In this document: positions 1,416 to 35,532 of the stretch, in pieces
Numbering within the stretch: the stretch's first letter is position 1
How the letters are laid out: each line of letters starts with the position of its first letter
Assembly: GCA_017961585.1 (NCBI GenBank)
Contig: JAGCWX010000024.1
Coordinates: forward strand, 1 to 36,867
Direction of reading: 5' to 3'
Length of the DNA: 36,867 nucleotides
From: Elusimicrobiaceae bacterium
GTDB lineage: Bacteria; Elusimicrobiota; Elusimicrobia; Elusimicrobiales; Elusimicrobiaceae
The notes under the pieces: model-generated
Seen by the model: the letters and a program-made list of their open reading frames with translations, nothing else
Databases searched by the model: none
What the model was told of the DNA's origin: nothing
Made by a program: the position numbers and the translations under genes

Positions 1416-2603
1416 ATGAAAGAACCGTCAGTATTTAGAAAACCAAAGTCACCCTATTGGTGGTGCGACTTCGTTTACAAGAAGAAACGCTATCAAAAGG
1501 CCATGGATAAGAACAAGAAACGTGCTATCCAAAAGACGAAAGAGTTGCAAACGAAACTACGCCTTGAAAACTCCGGGGATAGAAACCTGTGGAGCGTGTT
1601 CAAGGTGGAGTATTTTGAATGGGCCAAAGCCAACAAGAACGCGCAGACCGTATACCGCGATCGGCTATCGTTGTCGTACTTGGAAGAGTTTAAGCCGGAT
1701 ATTCACTTTGTAACCGATATTACTCCGGCCTTGCTCGACAAGTTCAAGGCCTATTTAATCAACCGTTCCCGGGCGTTAAAAGAGCAAGCCGTAAATCTCA
1801 AGCGCAAGTTCCGGGGAATGGGGGAACACGGCATAAACCGCACCTTGCAAAGCGTGAAAGTAATTGCGCGCAAAGCAGAGGCATGGGGATATTTCCCGGC
1901 CCCGCAAAAGTGGGAAACTATCTCAAAGATAAAAACAGCGGTCGGGCGCGTTGTGTTCCACACGGCAGAGGAATTGGAACGGCTGATTGACTATTGCCGG
2001 GAAGTCGCCGAAAACAACGATATTCACTATTGCCCGTATGAAACGGTCATTATGTTAGGGGCACGCGCCGGGTTGCGCCGGGGGGAAATACAAAACTTGA
2101 TGTGGACCGATATTGATTTTGAGCGAAACATCATCACGATTCAACCCAAGGAAGATTGGCACCCCAAGACGTACGAGTGCCGCGACATTCCCATGGCAAA
2201 AGACCTGCGCGAGCACTTGTTGAGCATACCGCGCCGGGGGCCGTATGTGTTGTACGACATCTACGGGCAACGTTTCTCTATGGGTAGTTTAACAAACTAC
2301 TACCGGGTCAAAATTGCGCGGAAAGTTGGCATAGATAGTTTTATCCATAAACTACGGCATACTTACGCAAGCCACCTTGTACAAAACCGCGTAGATTTGT
2401 ATACTGTATGTAAGTTGTTGGGGCATAAAAGCATAAAGACAACCGAAATTTACGCACACCTCATACCCGATACCTTACAACAAGCAGTTGACCGGCTCCC
2501 GCCACTCCATTTGAGTGTAGGGAAAAGTGTAGGGAGTTGCGCCAATTTTATCCACCAACGCGCGGAAACAAGAAACGCACGAAACAGAGCGCGCACGACC
2601 TAA
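1416..2603 (+). CDS. int: Tyrosine-family phage integrase
   Basis: Site-specific recombinase that would insert the circular phage genome into the host chromosome. At 395 residues it has the usual two-part form: an N-terminal arm-binding part (about 1-60, basic, WWCDF near the start), a core-binding SAM-like helical domain (about 60-165) and the catalytic domain (about 180-360). Visible catalytic residues are R221 (in GLRRGE), H311-x2-R314 (HKLRH), H337 (LGHKS) and the nucleophile Y346 (EIYAH). A moderate ribosome-binding site (AAGGA) supports the ATG. It follows a terminator and is convergent with the minus-strand glycyl-radical gene. Direct and inverted repeats overlap and follow its 3' end and are candidates for attP. 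No transposase accompanies the Mu-like head genes. Confidence 0.95.
   Translation: MKEPSVFRKPKSPYWWCDFVYKKKRYQKAMDKNKKRAIQKTKELQTKLRLENSGDRNLWSVFKVEYFEWAKANKNAQTVYRDRLSLSYLEEFKPDIHFVTDITPALLDKFKAYLINRSRALKEQAVNLKRKFRGMGEHGINRTLQSVKVIARKAEAWGYFPAPQKWETISKIKTAVGRVVFHTAEELERLIDYCREVAENNDIHYCPYETVIMLGARAGLRRGEIQNLMWTDIDFERNIITIQPKEDWHPKTYECRDIPMAKDLREHLLSIPRRGPYVLYDIYGQRFSMGSLTNYYRVKIARKVGIDSFIHKLRHTYASHLVQNRVDLYTVCKLLGHKSIKTTEIYAHLIPDTLQQAVDRLPPLHLSVGKSVGSCANFIHQRAETRNARNRARTT
2518..2538 (+). repeat. 21-bp direct repeat, copy 1 (possible attP arm)
   Basis: Identical to 2699-2719. This copy lies inside the 3' end of the integrase gene. Repeats close to an integrase gene end are typical arm sites, but no core site can be defined without a host junction. 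Confidence 0.5.
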
Positions 2604-3484: not shown

Positions 3485-3626
3485 GTTCTTGCTCCCTGGC
3501 TTGTTTTTTGAGTTCTGCCTTGAGTGATTCCAGTTGCGCGGCCTTGCTCCCGTTCTTGTGCGCCAAGAACAAAGCCACCACAAAGGCACAAACAGATCCC
3601 AATATCAAAGCAATCTGTTCCCACAT
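3393..3626 (-). CDS. Rz: Inner-membrane spanin (Rz-like)
   Basis: A 77-residue protein with one N-terminal membrane segment (about 5-22) followed by a charged periplasmic coiled coil (about 27-55, rich in K, E, Q and A). Together with the overlapping lipoprotein gene it makes the spanin pair needed for the last step of lysis in a diderm host. The start overlaps the stop of the preceding small membrane gene by a few bases, so translation is coupled. It is shorter than lambda Rz but similar in layout to short i-spanins of other prophages. Confidence 0.75.
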   Translation of the reverse strand: MWEQIALILGSVCAFVVALFLAHKNGSKAAQLESLKAELKKQAREQERAKQVADTVYSLSIDDARKRLHEVANRNKQ

Positions 3627-3817
3627 TATTTGGCCTTCCCGATAAAGGAACCGTCATCGTTACACAATGACAATGCAGAAAGAACTTTAATAAACTTGGC
3701 CAAAAAGTTATCGTCTTTTTGGGTAGGGGTCAGTTTCACGATGAGAGTTGCCAACGCAACTACTGCCCCTAAAATTTGTAGGCATTCGTCATAATGTTCG
3801 GTAACAAACTTAATCAT
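3626..3817 (-). CDS. Small holin-like membrane protein (63 aa)
   Basis: The start at 3817 follows AAGGAG at a slightly long spacing; a longer in-frame version from 3886 would lie inside the lysozyme gene. One hydrophobic helix (about residues 13-29) is followed by a basic/polar tail. The position between the lysozyme and spanin genes and the small size suggest a holin or antiholin, which would let the lysozyme reach the cell wall. The membrane protein upstream (4236-4472) is the other candidate for that role. Confidence 0.55.
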   Translation of the reverse strand: MIKFVTEHYDECLQILGAVVALATLIVKLTPTQKDDNFLAKFIKVLSALSLCNDDGSFIGKAK

Positions 3818-3819
3818 AA

Positions 3820-4239
3820 TCAATACACTCCTTCGCGCATAATGTACGCTAATTTGTACGCGCGCCCTTTTACCTGTTTGGCCCAACGGCTAACGAGCAT
3901 TTCTTCGCTCGCGGCTTTGTAATCTCCGGCAACGATGAAAGCGAGGGTCTTGCGGAAAGTACAAAGTTTTTTGATACCCATGTTAAATGCCATATCCAGT
4001 AAGACAAATTGCCGGGCCTCATCAAGTTTTTCGTACCACGGGAAGGCAACCTTGAGGGCGGCTTCGGCTTGCTCTAAATCTTGCTTTAAGAGCATAGTTG
4101 CAACTGTTTTACCGATGACATTATCTTCCAAGTTATGGCCGTAACCTACCGTCAAATGCCCGGTCGGGCACTTGTAGGCAACGGGGGCATATCCTTCAAA
4201 CGTCTTTACATACTCTGCGGCTTTTTCGTAATTTTTCAT
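3820..4239 (-). CDS. Endolysin, T4-type lysozyme
   Basis: A 139-residue muramidase that cuts the glycan backbone of peptidoglycan. The T4 lysozyme triad is recognisable as E15, C24 and T30 with the exact family spacing (E-8-C-5-T) and the motif TVGYGH right after it. The aspartate of T4 lysozyme is a cysteine here, a change already seen in many phage endolysins. The C-terminal half has the usual NMG and helical segments. There is no signal peptide, so it should depend on a holin. It overlaps the preceding gene by four bases and is in the lysis cassette with holin-like and spanin genes. Confidence 0.92.
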   Translation of the reverse strand: MKNYEKAAEYVKTFEGYAPVAYKCPTGHLTVGYGHNLEDNVIGKTVATMLLKQDLEQAEAALKVAFPWYEKLDEARQFVLLDMAFNMGIKKLCTFRKTLAFIVAGDYKAASEEMLVSRWAKQVKGRAYKLAYIMREGVY

Positions 4240-5602: not shown

Positions 5603-6742
5603 CTAAATTACAAGTTGGATATATCCACCGGCTCCGCCGGCTTGTGCTCCGGATCCACCCGCACTACCACCGGCACAGTTTATGGACCCAGTAATTGAAA
5701 TTTCGTTACCTATAAAAGCGGCACAGCCACCGCCACCACCACCGCCTTGTGCATATAAGTATCTTCCAGATGAAGAATAGGTTTGTGTCCCGCCGTTTGT
5801 ACCAGTTAATGTTAAAGTGCCAGCAATTACGATTCTGCGCGCTATGATAATAAGACCACCACCGCCCGTGCCCCCGGAGGCGTACTTAACATCTTGTGAT
5901 AGGGAATAATTCGAATAAGAATACCCTTTTCCTCCGGCACCGGCTCCACAGCCCCCTGCTGTGTATCTTGTTGCAATTTCACTTTTAATATACTGTCCAC
6001 CACCGCCCCCGCCACCACACCATGGAATTTGGTCAAAATTTAATGAGGCGAGCGCAACTTCTGCGGCATTCAAATCCATACTACCGCCTGAGGACAGGTT
6101 TGTCGCACCAATTCCCGATAACACATAATCGTATTCTCGCAAGTCGGCCGGATATCCTTTACCGCATTCTTCATAATTTGTGCCCCCGGCAAATCCTTTC
6201 CCTGATAAATTGATTGTTCCATTGATTGTACAAGTGCCGGTGCAACGAATAAAAAGTGGACTTCCGGCGGTTGTTTTTGATAAGGTTATGCCGGAATTAA
6301 GTGTAAAATTTTCAAAATTTTTCATGCGGTCATAACTACCGTCAGCCACCATGGTGACATCACCGTCACTGCCGTCGCCAAATAAATAATCCATACTGTT
6401 ACTCCCTCCTGCCAAAGATACGATTTCGCTACCGTTCCAAGCGTTTAATGTGTTTGTGTCAAGGTTCCAAAAGACAAAGCGGTCCGTGGCCCCGATTTTG
6501 CCCGCTGTTACGAGGACTTGCACTTCTACCGTCGTGTAAAGGTTGAACCCTTTGAAATATGCGTTCCCAAAAGGATTTGTTTTCGTTCCCAAGGGAAGCG
6601 CGTGCGAAGTGTCGGCTTGACCGTTCTCGTCAAAAGGAACGAGGCCTTCTTGCGAGCCATACTCACCTAACGATTTTGTTAGTTGTTTGGCCGTTAATAC
6701 TTGCCGTTTTCTGTAAATAGTGGCTTGATTCGGTTTTGTCAT
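5603..6742 (-). CDS. Glycine-rich tail fibre / adhesin (379 aa)
   Basis: The N-terminal part (about 1-110) has the look of a tail-attachment segment; the middle (about 115-180) is beta-rich. The C-terminal 170 residues alternate long glycine runs (seven or eight in a row, around residues 243 and 335) with short variable stretches such as GGTGGGG. This resembles polyglycine-sandwich receptor-binding tips, as in T4-like gp38 adhesins, though relationship is not shown. It would bind the host surface. Excellent AAGGAG ribosome-binding site. Its place after the tail-tip genes fits. Confidence 0.7.
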   Translation of the reverse strand: MTKPNQATIYRKRQVLTAKQLTKSLGEYGSQEGLVPFDENGQADTSHALPLGTKTNPFGNAYFKGFNLYTTVEVQVLVTAGKIGATDRFVFWNLDTNTLNAWNGSEIVSLAGGSNSMDYLFGDGSDGDVTMVADGSYDRMKNFENFTLNSGITLSKTTAGSPLFIRCTGTCTINGTINLSGKGFAGGTNYEECGKGYPADLREYDYVLSGIGATNLSSGGSMDLNAAEVALASLNFDQIPWCGGGGGGGQYIKSEIATRYTAGGCGAGAGGKGYSYSNYSLSQDVKYASGGTGGGGLIIIARRIVIAGTLTLTGTNGGTQTYSSSGRYLYAQGGGGGGGCAAFIGNEISITGSINCAGGSAGGSGAQAGGAGGYIQLVI

Positions 6743-9090: not shown

Positions 9091-11430
9091 TTACATTCTC
9101 TCCCCGGTTGGGAACGGAGCCATGCGGCCGCCCGCTATGCTCTCACTCATTTTTTGGCCCAACTTTTCAATAAGGCTGTCGGTACTGTCGGACAAGACAT
9201 CACCGTTGAAAATAAAATTGTTGTTGACGTTTAAGTCGTTGGCGTTCTGTTGTTCAAACAGGTTCTCGGTGTTACCCAACATCAAGTCGCCACTACGCAA
9301 GCCCTCTGCGAACGTTTTCGGTACAACGATTTCCCCTTGGTGCACGGTCGCTACCATATCTTGCGGAATTTCAGGCGTACCTACTGCTAATTGAATACCT
9401 ACGATTTTGCCTACGTTCATCAACCCCGTAGCGATTGCCGCTGCCGCCGCAGCCGCACCTAACGCCGGACCGACAATCGGGATCCCCGCCATAGCGGAAT
9501 AGGCCGCGTTTGCGGCTTTGTAAGTATCTACGGTTGCGGTCATAACTGCCGCCGCTTTTCCTACCGCCGCCATTTCTTTGTTCTTTGCGTTTTGAAGTTG
9601 CGAAATGTAGTTGAGGGAGTTCATAGCGGTCTTGGTGCGTTCGTCCGCTAAAAACTTATCCAATGCGTTAAAAGAGATTTTGTTCGCTTCCTGTTCGGCT
9701 TGCAAGGTGCGTTGGTAAGTGGCATATTCTTCATCAAGAGCCATCATTTGTTCTTGCAATTCCAGTTTTGCATTTACGTCGTTTGCGTTGTGTTCGGCAA
9801 GGTATGCAATTTGATTTTCAAGCATAGTGCGCTTGGCTTGGTAATCTTGGTCTGCGCGGAGTATTAGTTCGGCTTGCTCATACCCCGTTTGCGCTTGCTC
9901 AATTTCGGCAACCTTGTTCAAGTAGTCCATGTGTGTTTGCAACTTGAAATCAGACACACGTTTGGCGCGGTTTTCCGCGTCGCGGGCTTCCTGTTCGGCA
10001 CGCGCTTTGGCTTCGGCCTCGGCTTTTTTGCGGGCTTCTTCGGCCTCTTGTTCGGCTTGCATGCGCGCTTTCGCGGCGGCAATTTGTTCTTCGGCGGCCT
10101 TTTTGCTTTCGGCAGAGTTGGCGGCAATAGCGTCGCGCTCGCTTGCGAGGTACTGCGTAGATTGCCGGAAGATTTCAATTTGTTCTTTCTTCCCGGCAAT
10201 TTCGGCTTGCGTGGCTTCTAAATTCTTACGCGCAGTAGCCACGGCCTCATCAGAGGCAAGACCGATAGCGTTGCGAAATTCAAGTGTTTTTAAGTTGAGT
10301 TCTTGCAAAACTTCTTTGGTCTTTAAGATACCCAACGAAACGTAGTTAAAACCTTGTACCCCAGTTTCTACTAAAATGTTGATACAATCAGTGCAGAACG
10401 TGAACGCTTTTTGCAACCCTTGCACGCCCTTTGTCAGTAAATTGACAATGATTTGCGCCAACGGCTCAAAGGCCGCGCCGACTTGTTCTTTGAAGTCACC
10501 CCACGACTCCTTGAGGGCGTTTGTTTTGGTAATTAAATTGTTGGCACTCGCGCCGGCAAGAGAGCCGAATTTGTTATCGATTTGTTCTAACGCTTGTGCA
10601 AATTGTTCGCTTTGGGTTTTGCTTGTGTCTACTTTGATACCGTAGCGGGATAGCGCGGTAACGTTGCCTTCTGCCGCGCGTGCGACCATTTGAAACGCGC
10701 TTTGTACGTCAATACCTAACCCTTGCGATAACGCATACGCGCTGTTTGTGGCCTGTTTAAGTTCATCTCCAATGACCCCGAAATTGACAAGTAAGCGCAT
10801 GCCGTTTTTGATAACGTCATCAGAAACGCCGTACACGCTTTGCATACTTTGCGCGTAGTCGTTTAATTCTTTTGTAACGTAGGCCGACGTAATGCCTTGA
10901 TTGCGTAACGACGCTTCAAGGCGCGCGCTAATCATTTCCGCGTCCGCGAACTTATAGACACAATCGACAACCGCCTCGCCTAAATTCTTAAATGCACTTA
11001 TGGCAAGGTCAATCCCTTTTGTAACTAAATTACCGATAACGACATCAAGCGCAAAACCGTCTTTTAAGCGGCCTAACGCATTTTGCAGTATGTTTGTACC
11101 ACCCGCCGCTTTTTGTTGCTTTTCGGCTAGGTTTTCGGCAGATTTCGCGGCCTTGTCTTTGGCTTGCGCTTCTTCTTCCGTTGCCTGTGCAGAATCTTCC
11201 GCACTGGTAGAAATATCGGCGTTTGCGTTTGACAGGTCCGCGTTGGCTTGCGCGGCGTTTTCGGCCGCACTGCTTGCGTTCGCTTGTGCGCTCTCTAACT
11301 GCTCAATAGATTTTGACGCGCTTTCTGCCGCGTCAGCAAGTTCCTCGTTTTTCTCGGCTAAATTCTCAATAGCCGAACTTGCTTGGTCATCTATCTTCGC
11401 AGTAAACTTAACTTCATTATCGTTCGCCAT
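9091..11430 (-). CDS. Tail tape measure protein (779 aa)
   Basis: It sets tail length and is injected with the genome. It has all the usual signs: it is the longest gene, lies right after the tail chaperone pair, and has an alanine/glutamate-rich coiled coil at residues 15-115. A folded segment follows (about 125-400), then a second highly charged coiled coil (about 440-600, with EAEEARKKAEAEAKARAEQE-type sequence). A hydrophobic segment, about 655-695, contains GIPIVGPALG. It overlaps the chaperone frameshift product by 14 bases, so its translation is probably coupled; its own ribosome-binding site is weak. Its length would correspond to a tail of about 110-120 nm by the usual rule of thumb. 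Confidence 0.93.
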   Translation of the reverse strand: MANDNEVKFTAKIDDQASSAIENLAEKNEELADAAESASKSIEQLESAQANASSAAENAAQANADLSNANADISTSAEDSAQATEEEAQAKDKAAKSAENLAEKQQKAAGGTNILQNALGRLKDGFALDVVIGNLVTKGIDLAISAFKNLGEAVVDCVYKFADAEMISARLEASLRNQGITSAYVTKELNDYAQSMQSVYGVSDDVIKNGMRLLVNFGVIGDELKQATNSAYALSQGLGIDVQSAFQMVARAAEGNVTALSRYGIKVDTSKTQSEQFAQALEQIDNKFGSLAGASANNLITKTNALKESWGDFKEQVGAAFEPLAQIIVNLLTKGVQGLQKAFTFCTDCINILVETGVQGFNYVSLGILKTKEVLQELNLKTLEFRNAIGLASDEAVATARKNLEATQAEIAGKKEQIEIFRQSTQYLASERDAIAANSAESKKAAEEQIAAAKARMQAEQEAEEARKKAEAEAKARAEQEARDAENRAKRVSDFKLQTHMDYLNKVAEIEQAQTGYEQAELILRADQDYQAKRTMLENQIAYLAEHNANDVNAKLELQEQMMALDEEYATYQRTLQAEQEANKISFNALDKFLADERTKTAMNSLNYISQLQNAKNKEMAAVGKAAAVMTATVDTYKAANAAYSAMAGIPIVGPALGAAAAAAAIATGLMNVGKIVGIQLAVGTPEIPQDMVATVHQGEIVVPKTFAEGLRSGDLMLGNTENLFEQQNANDLNVNNNFIFNGDVLSDSTDSLIEKLGQKMSESIAGGRMAPFPTGERM

Positions 11431-21658: not shown

Positions 21659-22675
21659 CTAGTCCTTGCTTACAAAGGTGGAAACGATACTTTTGTCTTT
21701 TTCGTACATTTCCATAACCTCGTTAAAATTGCGGTTGCGTAAGTAGCGGTAGGTTTTACTGTCTTGGCCCATAGCGTGAAAGCAAAAGGCCGATCCGGGC
21801 TTACGCATAGCCGGAGTGATTTTTACGCCGGCTTTATCATATATATAATGGTTCAAATTATGTGTGGACGGTTGGAAACCGTTTAAGCCGTCCACACCAC
21901 AACAACACAGGCCGTCGCCCGTACTGCGAAGCCTGTTTTCTCCGCTGAAAAACTTTAGACCGTTTGCGTGACAGGTGTCTTTTAGGTCCATAAACTTGTT
22001 ACGCAAGATAAGATAGGGGTACACAAAGTCCGCGCCTAACTTTATCATGCCCGCGCGCCGTTTGGTCAGTTTCAAGGCCTCGTAAATAATGCCGTATGCA
22101 CCGGCCTCTGCTAAACGCGGGATTTGGGCCTTAATCTCTGTGTGTAATTCCGGCAAATACGGCTGACACCGTACGATAACCCGCTTTACTGCTTGGGCCA
22201 TTTTCGCTACAAGTGCCAGCCGTTCGTCAAATGAAGGTGCGCCCAGTTCTAGGCGCGATGTTATACTCGGACAGGTCATTGACACTTGAAACACACAGTT
22301 GCACTCCTTGAAAAGTGAATAGTACGGCTCTTCCATGGGGAGTGTGCCTTTTGTACTTACTACAAAGGGGTACTTGGTCTTGGCCAAGATTTCTAAACAC
22401 GCTAAACTGTTCTTGTGTATCTTCTCGCACGGTTGGAACGGATCCGAAAGACCGCCCCAATGTAGCGGTATGTTCCAATCACACCAAGAAGTTTCTTGCG
22501 CGCGTTTGCCCTGTATGAAGTTCAAAAGGGCTTCCGGGCCTTCATGCACACTTACGTTTGAAATGTCCGTCTTGCGGTTCACAAAACAATACTTGCAAGC
22601 GTGCGAACAACCCTTATAAGTATCAAATCGTATCGGCAAATCACATATAATCACTTGCGACCCGCAATTAGGCAT
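21659..22675 (-). CDS. SPL-family radical SAM enzyme (338 aa)
   Basis: It has the radical SAM cluster motif C23-x3-C27-x2-C30 (KGCSHACKYC) near the N-terminus and GGLSDPFQPCE (about 74-84), a hallmark of the spore-photoproduct-lyase-like COG1533 group. It would reductively cleave SAM to make a 5'-deoxyadenosyl radical. Additional cysteines C257-C258-C259 and C298 could hold a second Fe-S cluster or bind substrate. It overlaps the ParB-like gene by eight bases and precedes terS. GGAGG lies before the ATG. Substrate unknown; with a DNA-binding-type partner, a nucleic-acid reaction is the simplest guess. Confidence 0.82.
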   Translation of the reverse strand: MPNCGSQVIICDLPIRFDTYKGCSHACKYCFVNRKTDISNVSVHEGPEALLNFIQGKRAQETSWCDWNIPLHWGGLSDPFQPCEKIHKNSLACLEILAKTKYPFVVSTKGTLPMEEPYYSLFKECNCVFQVSMTCPSITSRLELGAPSFDERLALVAKMAQAVKRVIVRCQPYLPELHTEIKAQIPRLAEAGAYGIIYEALKLTKRRAGMIKLGADFVYPYLILRNKFMDLKDTCHANGLKFFSGENRLRSTGDGLCCCGVDGLNGFQPSTHNLNHYIYDKAGVKITPAMRKPGSAFCFHAMGQDSKTYRYLRNRNFNEVMEMYEKDKSIVSTFVSKD

Positions 22676-23414: not shown

Positions 23415-23975
23415 CTATTTTTCTTGGTTTTCAAAGTAATTTAACACGCCTTCAAAGTACCAACCCGGAACGTGAAAAGTTACTTGGTCTTTTTTGCCGT
23501 ACACGCGGAAGGCCGCGCCGGTTTCTTTGTGTTGTTTGATGTACTCTTCCGGCAAGACAATGTTAAAATATTCCGTGACTTTGACCCCGGTAGAATAACT
23601 GTCAACATCTCCCATGGGGCGTATGAACTTCATTTCTTTGCCGTCGTTATCTTTTGCAGATTCGTAGAAAGCCCATGAGGAACGGTCATCAGCCGCCAAC
23701 AAAAGGTACGTTTTTGAGCCGTCTTTTTGCGTGGTTTCTTTAATGCTGTAAGTAATGGGTGGAATGTAACCCCACTTTGACTTGCCGGTCATTTTCACAA
23801 TCTCGTCATTTCCAAGCGTGTAGTATTTTATGTTCGGAAACGCAACCGAAGTCGTTCCGGCGAACTTATCTTCCGTCGCTTTGGCTTTTTTAACTACCCA
23901 CGCCGCGTCTTTTTTCGCGAAGGCGGGCACACTAAACAATAAAAACACGCCTAACAATAATGAAAGTTTCTTCAT
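23415..23975 (-). CDS. Secreted protein coupled to the repressor (possible lysogenic conversion gene)
   Basis: A 186-residue protein with a clear Sec signal peptide (KK, a hydrophobic stretch, AFA cut after residue 20). The mature part is beta-rich with many aromatic and charged residues and no cysteine, and should be periplasmic. The start overlaps the repressor stop (ATGA), so both are made together in the lysogen. Genes in this place often alter the host cell or block superinfection. Family is not recognised; it is not a lipoprotein. Confidence 0.75.
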   Translation of the reverse strand: MKKLSLLLGVFLLFSVPAFAKKDAAWVVKKAKATEDKFAGTTSVAFPNIKYYTLGNDEIVKMTGKSKWGYIPPITYSIKETTQKDGSKTYLLLAADDRSSWAFYESAKDNDGKEMKFIRPMGDVDSYSTGVKVTEYFNIVLPEEYIKQHKETGAAFRVYGKKDQVTFHVPGWYFEGVLNYFENQEK

Positions 23976-24661
23976 TTTTCTCTCCGTTTTTTTGAAATGA
24001 TAGGGTCATCTTTTTTTACAACTTTCCCGACGATTTCGACATCAATGGCCTTAAAATGCAACGTTTTGTATTTTGGGTTATCGGGTTGTAAGTCAATCGT
24101 GTTGTTTTTCTTATTAAAGAAAATTCGTTTAATGGTGCTTTCTTCGCCGATACGCGCAACAACTACATCACCGTCTTTTACAGGAACGTTCGGCCGGACA
24201 ATAATCGTATCACCACTATATATTGAGTGGCGCGGGTCATTCGGATCTTCCATGCAATTACCCAAAACCTCAATGGCAAAATCGTCCGGGCCTTCCTTTT
24301 TTGTCGTCAAATAACCTTTCTTTTCTTCCAAAATAAACATCGTATTTGACGCTGACGACACGCCCATAATCGGCACTAGTTGTGTTTCTTTTGCGAGAGC
24401 AATCTTTTTGACTTTTTCCCCGCGCACAATTCCAAAAATGTTTTCAATTTCGGAGATAGACAACTTAAATGTTTTTGAAAGTTTTATGACGGTATCAAAG
24501 CCGGGCTTGTTTGCCCCACTAAATAACTTATTTACGGCCGCCGGTGAAATTCCGATTTGTTTTGACAAACGCGATTTGGCCCCTGCCAAAGAACCTTTAT
24601 TCCAGTTCAAAAGCAGTTGAATTTTTGGGTCTATATCATTATTTGCATTTTCAAAATTCAT
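23972..24661 (-). CDS. CI-like repressor with S24 (LexA-fold) domain
   Basis: 229 residues. N-terminal HTH (about 25-72, with QIGISPAAVNKLFSGANKPG). C-terminal S24-like domain (about 95-215) with YSGDTIIVRP, DGDVVVARIG and K178 in STIKRI. In LexA and CI the nucleophile serine lies in a GxSM motif; here the aligned motif is GNCM with C136, and the cleavage-region Ala-Gly is replaced by an SSASN sequence. It may thus be slowly or not self-cleaving. It faces the early promoter and its operators across the gap and would hold lysogeny. Confidence 0.88.
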   Translation of the reverse strand: MNFENANNDIDPKIQLLLNWNKGSLAGAKSRLSKQIGISPAAVNKLFSGANKPGFDTVIKLSKTFKLSISEIENIFGIVRGEKVKKIALAKETQLVPIMGVSSASNTMFILEEKKGYLTTKKEGPDDFAIEVLGNCMEDPNDPRHSIYSGDTIIVRPNVPVKDGDVVVARIGEESTIKRIFFNKKNNTIDLQPDNPKYKTLHFKAIDVEIVGKVVKKDDPIISKKRREK

Positions 24662-24689
24662 ACTTTTTCCGACGAGCGAAAAAAAACAC

Positions 24690-24718
24690 TTGACTTTTTT
24701 GTTTTAATCAAGTATAGT
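24690..24718 (+). promoter_or_regulatory. Early (PR-like) promoter
   Basis: TTGACT (24690-24695), 17-base spacer, TATAGT (24713-24718). It faces away from the repressor gene. On the other strand TATACT (24716-24711) is a possible -10 box of a weak repressor promoter, without a good -35 box. Confidence 0.8.
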
Positions 24719-24721
24719 AAA

Positions 24722-24751
24722 TTAACTGGTTAAAATGGTTAAATCAGTTAA
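24722..24751. promoter_or_regulatory. Operator repeats at the early promoter
   Basis: TTAACTG (24722-24728) and CAGTTAA (24745-24751) form an inverted pair. TTAACTGGTTAA (24722-24733) is a palindrome, and TGGTTAAA occurs twice (24727 and 24736). They cover the transcription start of the early promoter, where a repressor dimer would block it. Confidence 0.65.
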
Positions 24752-24770
24752 AATACTAAAAAGTTTTTAC

Positions 24771-24925
24771 GAGGCTCTCCAAATGCTGAAAACGAACTTA
24801 AAACAAACGAACGTATTTCAAAACACTTTCGATAGTCATATCGAAACGATGACCAATTCTGCGTCATCGTTGCTTTGGAGAGCAGACCGTTCATAGTGTT
24901 TCGCACTGTGGGCGGTCTTTATTAT
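24771..24925 (+). ncRNA. Structured leader RNA with own terminator
   Basis: Directly after the early promoter. A 10-bp closing helix (24774-24783 with 24874-24883) encloses an A-rich strand and two adjacent hairpins: an 8-bp stem with a four-base loop (24827-24834/24839-24846) and a 7-bp stem (24847-24853/24863-24869). A terminator-like hairpin (24884-24889/24913-24918, with an inner CATAGTG/CACTGTG stem) follows, then TTATTATT. No ORF fits. It could be an independent small RNA or a cis-acting antiterminator leader, comparable in layout to HK022 put RNA. Confidence 0.75.
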
Positions 24926-24982
24926 TGTAGCAGATTTTAATTATTTTTGCGAGTTTAAGCAAAACGGAGTGGAAAAGGAACT

Positions 24983-25288: not shown

Positions 25289-25492
25289 ATGACAATGACA
25301 AAAATTATCTGCGAAGTTTTACTTTACGTTTTATTATTCGGCATTGGCGCGGTGTGCCTGTGCTCAATGGGTGAAGTGTGGGAAGATTTTAAGGGCCTTT
25401 TGCAAGACCTACGCGAGCCCGGAGCCCTTACGGAAGTGCTTGGCGCGGCCATGGTAGTAGGTGTGCCTGTATTTTTGATGTTTGTACTGTAA
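25289..25492 (+). CDS. Small two-pass membrane protein (67 aa)
   Basis: Hydrophobic segments at about residues 6-27 and 48-66 with a short charged loop between (EVWEDFKGLLQDLREPG). AAGGAG precedes the ATG, six bases after the previous stop. It is followed by the long structured noncoding stretch. Family unknown; exclusion or membrane-signalling roles are common for such early genes but not shown here. Confidence 0.65.
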   Translation: MTMTKIICEVLLYVLLFGIGAVCLCSMGEVWEDFKGLLQDLREPGALTEVLGAAMVVGVPVFLMFVL

Positions 25493-25493
25493 G

Positions 25494-26330
25494 ACCACTC
25501 ACCCGGTGGTGGCAAAAAGAGCCGGGCAAGATTTTTAGCAGTTTTTATGATGATGTTCTTTGACAATTTACGCGGGTTCGTCTAACGTTAGGACAACTAA
25601 TCAAAGGAAAACTGGGTTGAACTCCCGGACCCGCAAATTTATAAGAATTTGCCGTCTTGCTAACGGCAAAATGAACATGACAATACTTACGAACATGGCA
25701 CTGTTGTAAGTTGGATAGCCCACAAGGGCGAAAGCGACCGCGCAAGCGGAGTTTCCAACCGCGCGACTAAACGGCATGCGAACTAACGAAATCCCGTCCA
25801 ATAGTTCAAATGCTTCAAATGTTCTAGGTGTAATAAGGGGGAGTAGTTGGCGGTAAAGAAAACCGTCAGCCGTTCACCTAGAAGGCCAACATAGGCCGAC
25901 ATATCTTCTACGGTGTTGCTGTAACGGCTGTTGACTAGGTATGTCAAAACTAACGTAGGTGTAAGGCCTACACTCCCCCGACAGATTTTCCCGGCGAAAT
26001 AAACCGGGCGGGCACACTCCTATAATAAGCCTAATAACGTGAAACCTCCAACAAATGTGCCCGATAGTTCTTCCTGTGTGAGGAAGTGGGGAAGGATCGA
26101 AGCGGTCTCCTAATGATAAGTAACATAACCGAAATTCCTTCCCCTATTCCTTCCATTTATTCAAACAATTTTCGTAAGTTTGCGGTGCTTACGGTAAATA
26201 AAACCGCCCGGACAATTTGAAGTACGAGGGGCCCGCGCCCATGCGTTACCAAAAAGCGGGGTGTTCTTTCGTTTTGTCTCTTAACTGAACGTCATCATAA
26301 GTCCCCGGCTCTTGCAAGGTGCCGGGGCCT
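25494..26330 (+). ncRNA. Candidate giant structured noncoding RNA (GOLLD/ROOL-like class)
   Basis: 868 bp between genes (25493-26360) hold no plausible ORF but many perfect helices: 25572-25580/25626-25634, 25648-25655/25663-25670, 25822-25830/25875-25883 (9 bp), 26009-26016/26056-26063 (8 bp), 26070-26075/26081-26086 and 26088-26096/26136-26144 (9 bp). A branched unit (25711-25715/25754-25758) encloses two hairpins, one with a GCAA tetraloop. Two pseudoknots (25837-25844/25972-25979; 26182-26186/26203-26207) and a long-range helix (25519-25526/26304-26311) are possible. Size, phage location and complexity fit the ornate large RNAs GOLLD and ROOL; membership is untested. Strand is taken from the neighbouring genes. 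Confidence 0.7.
26303..26327 (+). terminator. Strong GC hairpin at the 3' end of the noncoding region
   Basis: CCCCGGC (26303-26309) pairs with GCCGGGG (26321-26327). It is not followed by a clear T-run, so it may end or stabilise the RNA rather than act as a standard terminator. Its 5' arm could instead pair with 25519-25526. Confidence 0.45.
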
Positions 26331-26360
26331 AGATTTGCAGTTCATTCAAAAAGAGGGGTT

Positions 26361-26693
26361 ATGACACGAACCTATACAAAAGATGAAATCTACGCGACGT
26401 TAGAAAGTGCAAGACACGTCGCGGAAGGCATAATAGGCGTTTGGCGTGCGGCCGCCGGGCCGGAATCGGTGCGGTTGGCTGTACAAATACAAGACGCTTA
26501 CGAAAACGACATAAGGCGGTTGTTGCATGGCGGGCCAACTTTGCAAGACATCGTACACTCGCACATCAAGCCCGACCACGGTATGCTTGCCCCTTGCGGG
26601 CAAAAGCCGGAATGTCGCAACGTGGAAAGTTGTAAAAACTGTTCCACCTATGAACTCTTTTTAGAGAAGATTCGCACGAACTTCCGCGATTAG
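26361..26693 (+). CDS. Hypothetical protein with C-terminal cysteine cluster (110 aa)
   Basis: The start at 26361 has GAGGGG upstream; a longer in-frame start at 26319 would lie in the hairpin of the noncoding region. The N-terminal 70 residues are helical; the end has C78, C84, C90 and C93, a possible zinc site. Family unknown. It begins the replication/recombination gene block. Confidence 0.65.
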   Translation: MTRTYTKDEIYATLESARHVAEGIIGVWRAAAGPESVRLAVQIQDAYENDIRRLLHGGPTLQDIVHSHIKPDHGMLAPCGQKPECRNVESCKNCSTYELFLEKIRTNFRD

Positions 26694-33431: not shown

Positions 33432-34886
33432 ATGACAAAAAACACAACAACACAGTACAAAGAGTTAGAACATGGGGAAATAACCCTTGATGAAGTTACC
33501 GTTTCAGGCGATAACTTCCGCAAAGAGTTCAATGAGGAATCCCTCAAAGAACTTTCCGAAAACATTGCAAAGGTGGGCGTATTAGAACCCATTATTTTGC
33601 GTAAAAACCGCGCACATAAAATACTTGTAGCCGGAGAACGCCGCTTGCGTGCCGCGCAAATGGCGGGTATTGAGAAAATCCCGTACCGCTTGCTTGACCT
33701 TACCGAAGAACAAGCCCGCGAAGTAATGGTACTTGAAAACTTGCACCGCAAAGATTTAAGCCCGCTAGAAGAAGCCCGTGGGTTTAATGACTTGCTAAAG
33801 AGTGGCGGTTATACGGCCGAAGATGTAGCCAACCGGGTAGATAAGAGCAAGGCGTATGTGTACCGGGCAATCCGTTTGCTTGACTTGCCACAGGAAGCGC
33901 AAGACGCGCTAGAAAAAGGCGAAATCACAACCGGGCATGCGCGCCAACTGTTGTGCGTGTCGGCTGATGAAGCCAAAGAGTTACTCAAAAAAATCAAACG
34001 CAGAGAGATGAGCGTAACCGCGTTGCGCGACGAAATTAAATGGACTCTTGGCACCGATTTAGAGGATTCGCGGTTTAAGTTAGATGTGGAATATGCGGGC
34101 AAAATAGCGTGTAGCAAGTGTCCGTACAATACCGCCAATCAGCAATCCCTTTTTGATGAGGCCGTTGAAGCCGGAAGATGTACGAATAAGGCCTGCTACG
34201 AAGAAAAGGAAAAGCAATCCTTCGCCGACTTAGTGGAAGAAGTCAAAGCCAAAGCGCAAAAAGCGGGAATGAAATTCTTGGATCCGCAAGATCGATACGA
34301 CTATGACGAAAGTTACGAGATTATGGACCAAGACGAACAAGAACAATATGCCGACGAAATCAAAAAGCACCCCGGCAAGTTTGCGCTAACCGTGTTCAAG
34401 TATAGTGGCGAAGAAGGTCTGCTTTGCATTGATAAAAAACTTGCCAAAAAAATCAATGACGAACGGTACGCGGAAGATGAGGAAGAGGAAGAAGAAACCG
34501 AAGAAGAAAAAGCCGAGCGCGCCGAGCGTGAACGTGAACGCGCTATCCGCGACAAAGAAGAAGAATTTCTTGCCGGGAAACTGTTAGGCGAGTTACTCAA
34601 CAAGGAAATTACCGACAAGGTTTTTGAGAACTTGTGGGACGACTTCCGCGATTGGCAAAAAGAGGCCCTTGCCAAGAATTTCGGCCTAAAAAGTTTAACC
34701 GTGGACGAAGTATTAAAACTGGAACCGAAAAAACTGTTTTGGTTTATGAGTATCGTCCGCACAACAAATCAATGGGGCTTTAACGAAGATATATGCACCT
34801 TGCTTGATGACCGCGAAATTACGGAAGAAGAAATAGACGAAATGCACGCGAAAGCCGTTGCCGCTATTGATTCAGCCAACAAGTAA
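33432..34886 (+). CDS. ParB/Spo0J-family protein with zinc-like cluster (484 aa)
   Basis: CTP-binding ParB-N with GERRLRAA (68-75) and ENLHRKDLSPLEEA (102-115), then an HTH (about 128-150). A cysteine cluster (CSKCPYN, GRCTNKAC, about residues 228-257) and a highly acidic segment (about 350-375, many E) follow, then a helical end. No ParA lies anywhere in the window. It may act as a DNA clamp or regulator rather than in partition. It follows the methyltransferase gene. Confidence 0.85.
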   Translation: MTKNTTTQYKELEHGEITLDEVTVSGDNFRKEFNEESLKELSENIAKVGVLEPIILRKNRAHKILVAGERRLRAAQMAGIEKIPYRLLDLTEEQAREVMVLENLHRKDLSPLEEARGFNDLLKSGGYTAEDVANRVDKSKAYVYRAIRLLDLPQEAQDALEKGEITTGHARQLLCVSADEAKELLKKIKRREMSVTALRDEIKWTLGTDLEDSRFKLDVEYAGKIACSKCPYNTANQQSLFDEAVEAGRCTNKACYEEKEKQSFADLVEEVKAKAQKAGMKFLDPQDRYDYDESYEIMDQDEQEQYADEIKKHPGKFALTVFKYSGEEGLLCIDKKLAKKINDERYAEDEEEEEETEEEKAERAERERERAIRDKEEEFLAGKLLGELLNKEITDKVFENLWDDFRDWQKEALAKNFGLKSLTVDEVLKLEPKKLFWFMSIVRTTNQWGFNEDICTLLDDREITEEEIDEMHAKAVAAIDSANK

Positions 34887-34895
34887 AGTTAAACC

Positions 34896-34917
34896 GTGCC
34901 CCCGTAACAGGGGGCAC
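34896..34917. terminator. Hairpin at the border of the small-gene cassette
   Basis: GTGCCCCC pairs with GGGGGCAC over a six-base loop. There is no T-run, so termination is doubtful. Apart from small differences it is the reverse complement of the hairpin at 1371-1390, including the loop. Confidence 0.5.
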
Positions 34918-34929
34918 ACAGGGGAATTT

Positions 34930-35169
34930 ATGGGAAACGAAAACAAAAAAGAAGGCATACCGATCGGCGCGAAAGAAACGCCGGAAACAGTACGGGCCAA
35001 AAAGATAGGGTTTTTCTTGGGCTCTATTTCCGCGATAAACTTGGCCATAGCGGAATTAACGCGCATGCGTAAGGAAATGGAAGCAATGTTTGAAACTTAC
35101 GAAAAGACCGGCAAATTTGGAGAAGGAAACGACAAGTCCGGTGGCAACTTCCCAACGGGGCGTGCGTAA
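34930..35169 (+). CDS. Hypothetical protein (79 aa)
   Basis: The start at 34930 has AGGGG upstream and lies after the hairpin. A mainly helical protein with a mild hydrophobic stretch (IGFFLGSISAINLAIAEL, about 26-43) and a G/N/K tail. Family unknown. First gene of the accessory cassette. Confidence 0.65.
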   Translation: MGNENKKEGIPIGAKETPETVRAKKIGFFLGSISAINLAIAELTRMRKEMEAMFETYEKTGKFGEGNDKSGGNFPTGRA

Positions 35170-35170
35170 T

Positions 35171-35335
35171 ATGAAAAAAGCACAAGCAAAGTTCAAAGTA
35201 GGCCAAGTAGTTCAGTTCTTTTGGGGCACACAATACCTCAAAGGGGCAATCCGTAAAGTTCGCGCGGAAGGGTGCGAAATCGTAACGCTTACCGGCGCGT
35301 ATTACATACAAAACAAAGACATTTTAACGAGGTAA
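35171..35335 (+). CDS. Small SH3-like hypothetical protein (54 aa)
   Basis: Starts two bases after the previous stop. The sequence KFKVGQVVQFFWGTQYLKGAIRKV gives a short beta-barrel pattern resembling small KOW/SH3-like folds in phage proteins; this is only a pattern. Basic (about nine K/R). Confidence 0.55.
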   Translation: MKKAQAKFKVGQVVQFFWGTQYLKGAIRKVRAEGCEIVTLTGAYYIQNKDILTR

Positions 35336-35337
35336 CT

Positions 35338-35532
35338 ATGAAGATAATGCCGTGTGAAGAAAAAATAGAAGATGTGGCCTTTGCTCTTTTCAAAGAAAAA
35401 CGCCGCCAAAAGGGGCAGAAGGCCGATTTCTCAAGTTGGGCGCGCCTTTGCCAACAGGGGCGCGAAAACTACCGCGCTGAAGCGAGAGTCGCCATTGAAA
35501 CGTGGGAAGATATACGCGAGGTAAAAGTATGA
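35338..35532 (+). CDS. Small hypothetical protein (64 aa)
   Basis: Starts two bases after the previous stop, with GAGGT upstream. Helical, basic/charged (FKEKRRQKGQKADF). The next gene begins over its stop (ATGA), so the two are coupled. Confidence 0.55.
   Translation: MKIMPCEEKIEDVAFALFKEKRRQKGQKADFSSWARLCQQGRENYRAEARVAIETWEDIREVKV

Follow-up and report, generated by a model that had tools for sequence, protein, structure and literature searches.

We analysed a 36,867-nucleotide (nt) stretch of DNA, contig JAGCWX010000024.1 of an Elusimicrobiaceae bacterium, referred to here as the window, and within it a region of the early operon at positions 25493 to 26360. A first-pass annotation, made from the sequence alone, had placed a candidate for a phage-borne, elaborately structured noncoding RNA there. 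The window is the contig of a temperate phage or prophage, as its head, terminase, integrase and repressor genes demonstrate, and the phage location thus stands. The region sits behind two small genes of the early operon. Its 868 bp, from the stop of one open reading frame (ORF) to the start codon at 26361, contain no plausible gene: the longest + strand ORFs (49, 44 and 26 aa) have no plausible ribosome site, the - strand ORFs are of 66 aa, and the alignment to a relative carries frame-breaking gaps. The absence of a believable gene was therefore confirmed, and the region is noncoding. A candidate early promoter (TTGACT-17-TATAGT at 24690, a promoter match only) lies beside the repressor gene, shortly followed by an intrinsic terminator at 24884-24918. 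Searches of the region itself returned no match to a terminator at its 3' end, nor any to a + strand promoter within it, and no antisense promoter stood out.

The many helices reported earlier, some of 8-9 bp, were recovered by an inverted-repeat search, which gave 16 inverted pairs in the region and perfect arms of 8-10 bp at 25822/25875, 25837/25972, 25867/25923, 26009/26056, 25648/25663 and 25517/26304. Adjacent hairpins had also been credited with GNRA-like loops; a true GNRA loop tops one of them (CCGC-GCAA-GCGG, 25738-25749), and the loop of its neighbour is ACAA. The parts of the region and its principal neighbours are collected in Table 1.

Table 1. Features of the structured region and of the phage genome around it.
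Feature	Position	Strand	Basis or remark
Gene-free structured region	25493-26360	+	Between ORF 25289-25492 and ORF 26361-26693, early operon
5' cap module: H-type pseudoknot CCAC-uca-CCCGG-ug-GUGG-(A-rich)-CCGGG, then ca-AGAUUU	25495-25534	+	Pseudoknot scan, compensatory changes
boxA antitermination signal GTTCTTTGACA	25555-25565	+	Identical 11-mer at host stable-RNA genes
tRNA-derived domain: acceptor-like GCGGGT/ACCCGC, D-arm-like GTCTAACGTTAGGAC, T-arm-like CTGGG-TTGAACT-CCCGG	25572-25634	+	Anticodon arm lost
H-type pseudoknot UAAGA-UUGCCG-UCUUG-CGGCAA	25642-25669	+	Pseudoknot scan, -18.4 kcal
Branched unit GUUGG..CCAAC around hairpins GCCC-ACAA-GGGC and CCGC-GCAA-GCGG	25710-25759	+	Read from sequence; predicted, no aligned relative
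Core of three crossing perfect 8-9 bp helices: 25822-25830/25875-25883, 25867-25874/25923-25930, 25837-25844/25972-25979	25822-25979	+	Predicted, no aligned relative
GAC-AGAUUU behind core	25983-25988 (AGAUUU)	+	
Module M: hairpin CCCGG/CCGGG, then helix CGGGCACA/UGUGCCCG	25990-26063	+	Common to L227 and L226
H-type pseudoknot UCGUAAG-GCGGU-CUUACGG-(A-rich)-ACCGC	26172-26207	+	Pseudoknot scan, -21.2 kcal
3' cap module: H-type pseudoknot UAAG-CCCCGGC-CUUG-caaggu-GCCGGGG, then ccu-AGAUUU	26297-26336	+	
End-to-end helix	25544-25558 (5' arm), 26287-26301 (3' arm)	+	5' arm overlaps start of boxA
Integrase (tyrosine)	1416-2603		Protein family match
S24-type repressor	23972-24661	-	Protein family match
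Portal, terminase, capsid and tape-measure genes		-	
Early operon		+	ERF, NinB/Orf recombination proteins, replication initiation protein, DnaC-like loader

A BLAST search of the region against known phages gave no match. Relatives were located via neighbouring genes, sequence patterns and related genomes, and were found in six other (pro)phages, all in early regions and, where checked, in the same direction, so that the position in the operon has been kept. Relative V (L228/L229, IMG/VR contigs) has syntenic genes on both flanks; C is represented by G041 and L227, D by G028 and L226, and F by L102. Relatives E (G001, L225) and G (G020, L288) precede recombinase genes, ERF- and RecT-like as assigned by eye from sequence. 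The relatives range in length from ~190 to 1160 nt, and the pieces they have in common are pairwise and mosaic: modules are kept but shuffled and rearranged, sometimes with genes in between. Between the window and V, 146 nt spanning the cap pseudoknot, boxA and the tRNA-like domain are 76% identical.

The building block of this family is an H-type pseudoknot followed by AGAUUU. The family elements contain 15 copies of AGATTT versus 1.1 expected from shuffles (0/1000), and an H-type pseudoknot ends 0-4 nt upstream of AGATTT or CGATTT at 15 of 19 sites. The same composite was found at 11/688 sites of other phage loci and at 0/38 of the remaining window sites, an enrichment with a Fisher P of about 4e-21 that overstates independence, since E, F and G are closely related; the composite is nonetheless present in each separate lineage (the window, V, C and E/F/G), and in the window it stands at both ends of the region. 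Compensatory base changes in relatives, which the first-pass annotation had posed as a test, were found in three parts. All pairs of the 5' cap module are kept over four sequence types, with compensatory changes at 5/9 pairs; the second helix of module M has them at 3/8 pairs across the window, C and D, and the T-like arm at 1/5 pairs across the window and V. Structure has thus been under selection in the caps, module M and the T-like arm, in lineages whose independent number is small. The 3'-end pseudoknots were chosen separately in each sequence, and their pair counts are not independent evidence.

In L225 (4835-5047), a 70-aa ORF lies between two pseudoknot modules that adjoin without an ORF in L288. 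Several candidate relatives were rejected: a match to the pseudoknot pattern in G079 lies inside a transposase-like gene, L101 and L233 proved unrelated, and 39-nt matches to the boxA stretch of L228 in G001, G020 and G042 are coding-like DNA without an exact boxA. For the pattern CCCGGCRAA..CCGGGCGGGC, searched in genome and viral contig collections, the matches examined were unrelated GC-rich DNA, and most matches lay outside that check.

Structure in the region also exceeds chance by measures that do not depend on relatives. Folding energy is not one of them. The minimum free energy of the region is -283.3, with z -5.6 on the + strand (100 shuffles) and z -3.5 on the - strand; we rejected this value as proof of structure, and stability by itself is weak evidence, because 30 control segments of the window phage average z -2.5 (standard deviation 2.4, minimum -8.2) and attain similar values. 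Specific structure carries the case. H-type pseudoknots, defined as two stems whose stacking energies sum to <= -18 kcal/mol, were counted with dinucleotide shuffles as the null. The window region contains four, versus a shuffle mean of 0.50 (0/500 shuffles attain four), relative C (G041) seven versus 1.07 (0/500) and relative D (G028) three versus 0.27 (1/500). Control segments of the window average 0.77; four were also counted in a segment overlapping the region and at 34641-35506 (+), a mostly coding stretch that is the sole other place in the window with as many strong candidates.

The best end-to-end pairing combines two helices, 25517-25526/26304-26313 and 25544-25558/26287-26301. This chain scores 29.1, versus a mean of 21.0 and a maximum of 28.3 in shuffles (0/200), and 0/120 control segments equal it. 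The best single long-range helix was rejected as proof, as 22/400 shuffles match it; only the two-helix chain stands out. Pseudoknot count and two-helix pairing thus beat shuffles and nearly all controls. In the predicted fold, the two helices would close the RNA. The 10 bp helix 25517-25526/26304-26313 is mutually exclusive with both cap pseudoknots, and could follow from the CCCGG/CCGGG stem that the two caps have in common.

The 11-mer GTTCTTTGACA occurs in five exact copies in the 1.49 Mb draft host genome: the one in the region, one 13 nt upstream of the transfer-messenger RNA (tmRNA) gene, and three in apparent coding DNA. In the related genome G046 it stands 14 nt upstream of the tmRNA. 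The 16S gene was not detectable in the host draft, and the ribosomal RNA (rRNA) boxA was hence checked in another related genome, G030, where the 11-mer lies in the 16S-23S spacer, between the spacer tRNAs and the 23S gene. Because this copy occupies the classical rRNA boxA position, the 11-mer is, on sequence grounds, a genuine host boxA carried by the phage RNA, on which a Nus complex would form. In E. coli, the rRNA antitermination complex requires boxA, which also suffices for it, and formation of the pre-16S leader-trailer helix may be aided by tethering (PMC10250234); other bacteria have boxA sites outside rRNA (PMC5725501). A host boxA upstream of a structured RNA is what we found here as well, and NusB/S10 binding and Rho resistance may be expected to follow from it.

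The host tmRNA leader (L239 1144-1511 (-), host contig C36) reads TTAGATTTTGCAGTTCTTTGACAATTT, with AGATTTT-GCAG right before boxA, as in the phage elements. Further boxA-like sites, TCTTTGACA, were seen at L226 ~5700-5760 (-), L102 ~3880-3895 (-) and L227 ~11120-11165 (+); those of L226 and L102 face away from the rightward early operon, recalling the position of nutL.

The 63 nt straight behind boxA are tRNA-like. At the matching place, the sequence of relative V (L228) adopts a cloverleaf whose anticodon loop is CUCAUAA, and relative C (L227) encodes a genuine tRNA-Met that scores 73 bits and is as much as ~91% identical to host tRNA genes, so that a tRNA or tRNA-derived domain stands right behind boxA in all three. 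Among 2.9 million viral contigs, the D-arm sequence was found only in V contigs and in one real tRNA-Gln (L233). In the window and V, C56 is gone from the T-loop and G19 from the D-loop, as read from the sequence, and the G19-C56 contact is lost with them. The tRNA model RF00005 gave no match at E<=10 on window 25560-25650 or L228 3190-3525, and ARAGORN made no tRNA call for the domain. Because of these losses and the silent model, the domain, although of tRNA ancestry, is a remnant or re-use of a tRNA and no working tRNA. V has a second, tRNA-Leu-like unit (L228:3347-3517) with a 7 bp acceptor (GGGAACG/CGTTCCC) and D-arm-like and T-arm-like parts, in which about 110 structured nt replace the anticodon arm. 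Pseudoknots, boxA and tRNA-derived domain had all escaped the earlier reading of the region.

These losses could also mean that the whole region is a decaying phage tRNA gene cluster or junk, its helices being tRNA remnants and chance pairing. The missing anticodon arm and G19-C56 contact would fit, as would the real tRNA-Met that persists in L227 and the tRNA-Leu-like remnant in L228. Against decay, the T-like arm and the cap pseudoknot carry compensatory changes, pseudoknots are enriched and the pseudoknot-AGAUUU composite recurs, all of which point to selection on structure; the similarity of cap, boxA and tRNA-like domain to those of L228 also speaks against it. We consider this explanation very improbable.

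The reading that we favour, with a probability of about 0.5, is that the region belongs to a new modular family of structured, untranslated early-operon phage RNAs, transcribed by a Nus/boxA-modified polymerase and acting in trans. Early transcription would start at the promoter beside the repressor gene and pass the terminator and the two small genes into the region. There, boxA would load the host NusB/S10 antitermination complex, and the modified polymerase could cross the ~800 untranslated nt without Rho termination, as on rRNA. The RNA would then fold into its capped, pseudoknotted structure and be cut free from the downstream recombination/replication mRNA. We infer such processing from the missing terminator match at the 3' end; read-through followed by processing also fits the lack of a + strand promoter match inside the region. 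Trans action on the translation apparatus is favoured because the boxA is that of rRNA and tmRNA and a tRNA-derived domain accompanies it; that a stable RNA acts in this way, probably on the translation apparatus, is a guess by analogy. A bolder form of this proposal is a new giant phage RNA class in which interchangeable pseudoknot-AGAUUU modules are bound by one protein or ribosomal partner and joined to rRNA-type boxA antitermination and a tRNA-derived head, making a ribosome- or tRNA-mimicking machine early in infection. We advance it tentatively, as rather unlikely in its full extent.

Several observations weigh against the trans-acting RNA. Its minimum free energy does not stand out within this phage, and its tRNA-like domain goes unrecognized by the tRNA model. 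The branched unit and the crossing core helices are predictions only, because no relative aligns to about 25640-25980. Relatives differ in length and module order, and ORFs lie between modules in L225 and L228; a set of distinct leader elements would account for both facts better than a single giant RNA. The last pseudoknot reaches the next start codon in L288 and the ribosome-binding site in L227, and such an overlap of distal modules with the start region of the next gene suggests cis control.

The strongest rival is accordingly a purely cis-acting early-operon leader, in which boxA and the modules act only on their own transcript, by antitermination and translation control of the next genes, and no free giant RNA exists. 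In lambda, nutR lies between promoter-proximal small genes and the recombination/replication genes; boxA has the same place here, and an intrinsic terminator lies directly behind the presumed promoter. The interrupting ORFs and the overlaps just described speak for the same explanation. A leader of 868 nt would, on the other hand, far exceed nut or put sites, an end-to-end helix and a tRNA-derived domain are unexpected in a leader, and in the window some 24 nt separate the 3' cap from the start codon. We regard cis action as a substantial possibility, if short of an even chance.

The location ahead of recombination/replication genes would also fit another kind of element, an RNA-based origin or replication control region such as the noncoding RNA regions for extrachromosomal prophage replication in mycobacteriophages. 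RNA-based prophage origins are documented (PMC7157519), and the window encodes a ParB-like protein (ParB_N and HTH_ParB) at 33432-34886 (+). The phage nevertheless has a tyrosine integrase, no ParA was identified in it and no antisense promoter stands out in the region. We know of no RNA-based origin with a boxA and a tRNA-derived domain, and give this explanation scant credence.

Two other places in the window drew attention. The leader between the repressor and the first early gene (24662-24982) folds very strongly (z -7.9) and carries the promoter match (24690-24718) and, in the intrinsic terminator, 16 pairs. A comparable stem with a T-run was seen by eye ahead of the first early gene in L226 (~5850-5915), L102 (~3990-4040) and L225 (~3550-3630), and the sequences suggest a conserved terminated leader RNA. 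Adjoining the terminase genes, 21659-22675 (-) encodes a protein of unknown function (phrog_13321) with a CxxxCxxC motif as in radical SAM enzymes.

What very large structured RNAs such as GOLLD and ROOL do has long been a puzzle in phage biology, and the present locus contributes a family that the known models do not cover. Behind the same boxA stands a genuine tRNA in one relative, a cloverleaf resembling a tRNA in another and a degenerate tRNA-derived domain in the window. These stages suggest one path from a phage tRNA gene to a component of a large RNA. The common boxA predicts that the phage transcribes a long untranslated RNA with antitermination factors borrowed from host rRNA synthesis, and the repeated pseudoknot-AGAUUU unit offers a searchable signature and a bait for its binding partner.

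The first-pass annotation had likened the region to the GOLLD and ROOL classes by size and phage location, with a new family as the fallback. Membership in these classes found no support. A full Rfam 15 scan of the window found no family at the gathering threshold, and GOLLD, ROOL, HEARO and OLE gave no match even at E<=10 in the region or in the G041 relative. The tmRNA model RF00023 had no match in the region in a scan that recovered the host tmRNA, and Rfam scans at relaxed thresholds yielded no family either, their hits being tRNAs and the host tmRNA. The GOLLD model also found nothing in 61 genomes, a result of little weight, as control genomes gave no match either. A literature search turned up no description of such an RNA from this phage group. 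The lack of an Rfam match, the recurrent modules and the compensatory changes instead support the new family, and with it the noncoding, elaborately structured RNA region first proposed for the phage.

Function like that of GOLLD or ROOL is a separate matter. Both are large RNAs that phages encode close to tRNA islands and that assemble into cages; the linker of GOLLD sometimes contains tRNAs, and ROOL has multiple pseudoknots (PMC12286853). By analogy, the region could be a giant trans-acting RNA that assembles into a multimeric RNA cage while being homologous to neither. It resembles GOLLD (RF02032) in its size of ~800 nt, phage location, variable 5' part and unknown function, and in its association with tRNA, given the tRNA-Met in L227 and the tRNA-derived domain in the window; with ROOL it has large size and multiple pseudoknots in common. 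It differs from GOLLD in its repeated pseudoknot-AGAUUU modules and boxA, and from ROOL in size range and modular, mosaic make-up, and neither covariance model matches. Size varies among the relatives, and the location in an early operon contrasts with GOLLD, whose expression increases at lysis. Membership is not supported; a GOLLD/ROOL-like function is possible but unlikely.

Among smaller systems, ToxI type III antitoxin RNAs are series of H-type pseudoknots with A/U-rich linkers. The region likewise contains a series of H-type pseudoknots, but these differ in sequence and, by a repeat search, are not tandem repeats; no toxin family, the ToxN type included, was found among the flanking proteins tested. 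Like lambda nut and HK022 put, the region has a boxA in an early phage operon behind the first genes. It is much longer, and no boxB or N-like protein was identified; the flanking proteins matched no antiterminator family, although a short basic protein could escape such a comparison. The region also resembles the boxA leaders of rrn operons and tmRNA. The RNA is not ribosomal, and its helix arm covers part of boxA where an arm 18-19 nt downstream would be the rule, but the same 11-mer stands directly upstream of a structured RNA, and the way its two ends pair close to boxA is reminiscent of the leader-trailer helix of pre-16S RNA (PMC10250234).
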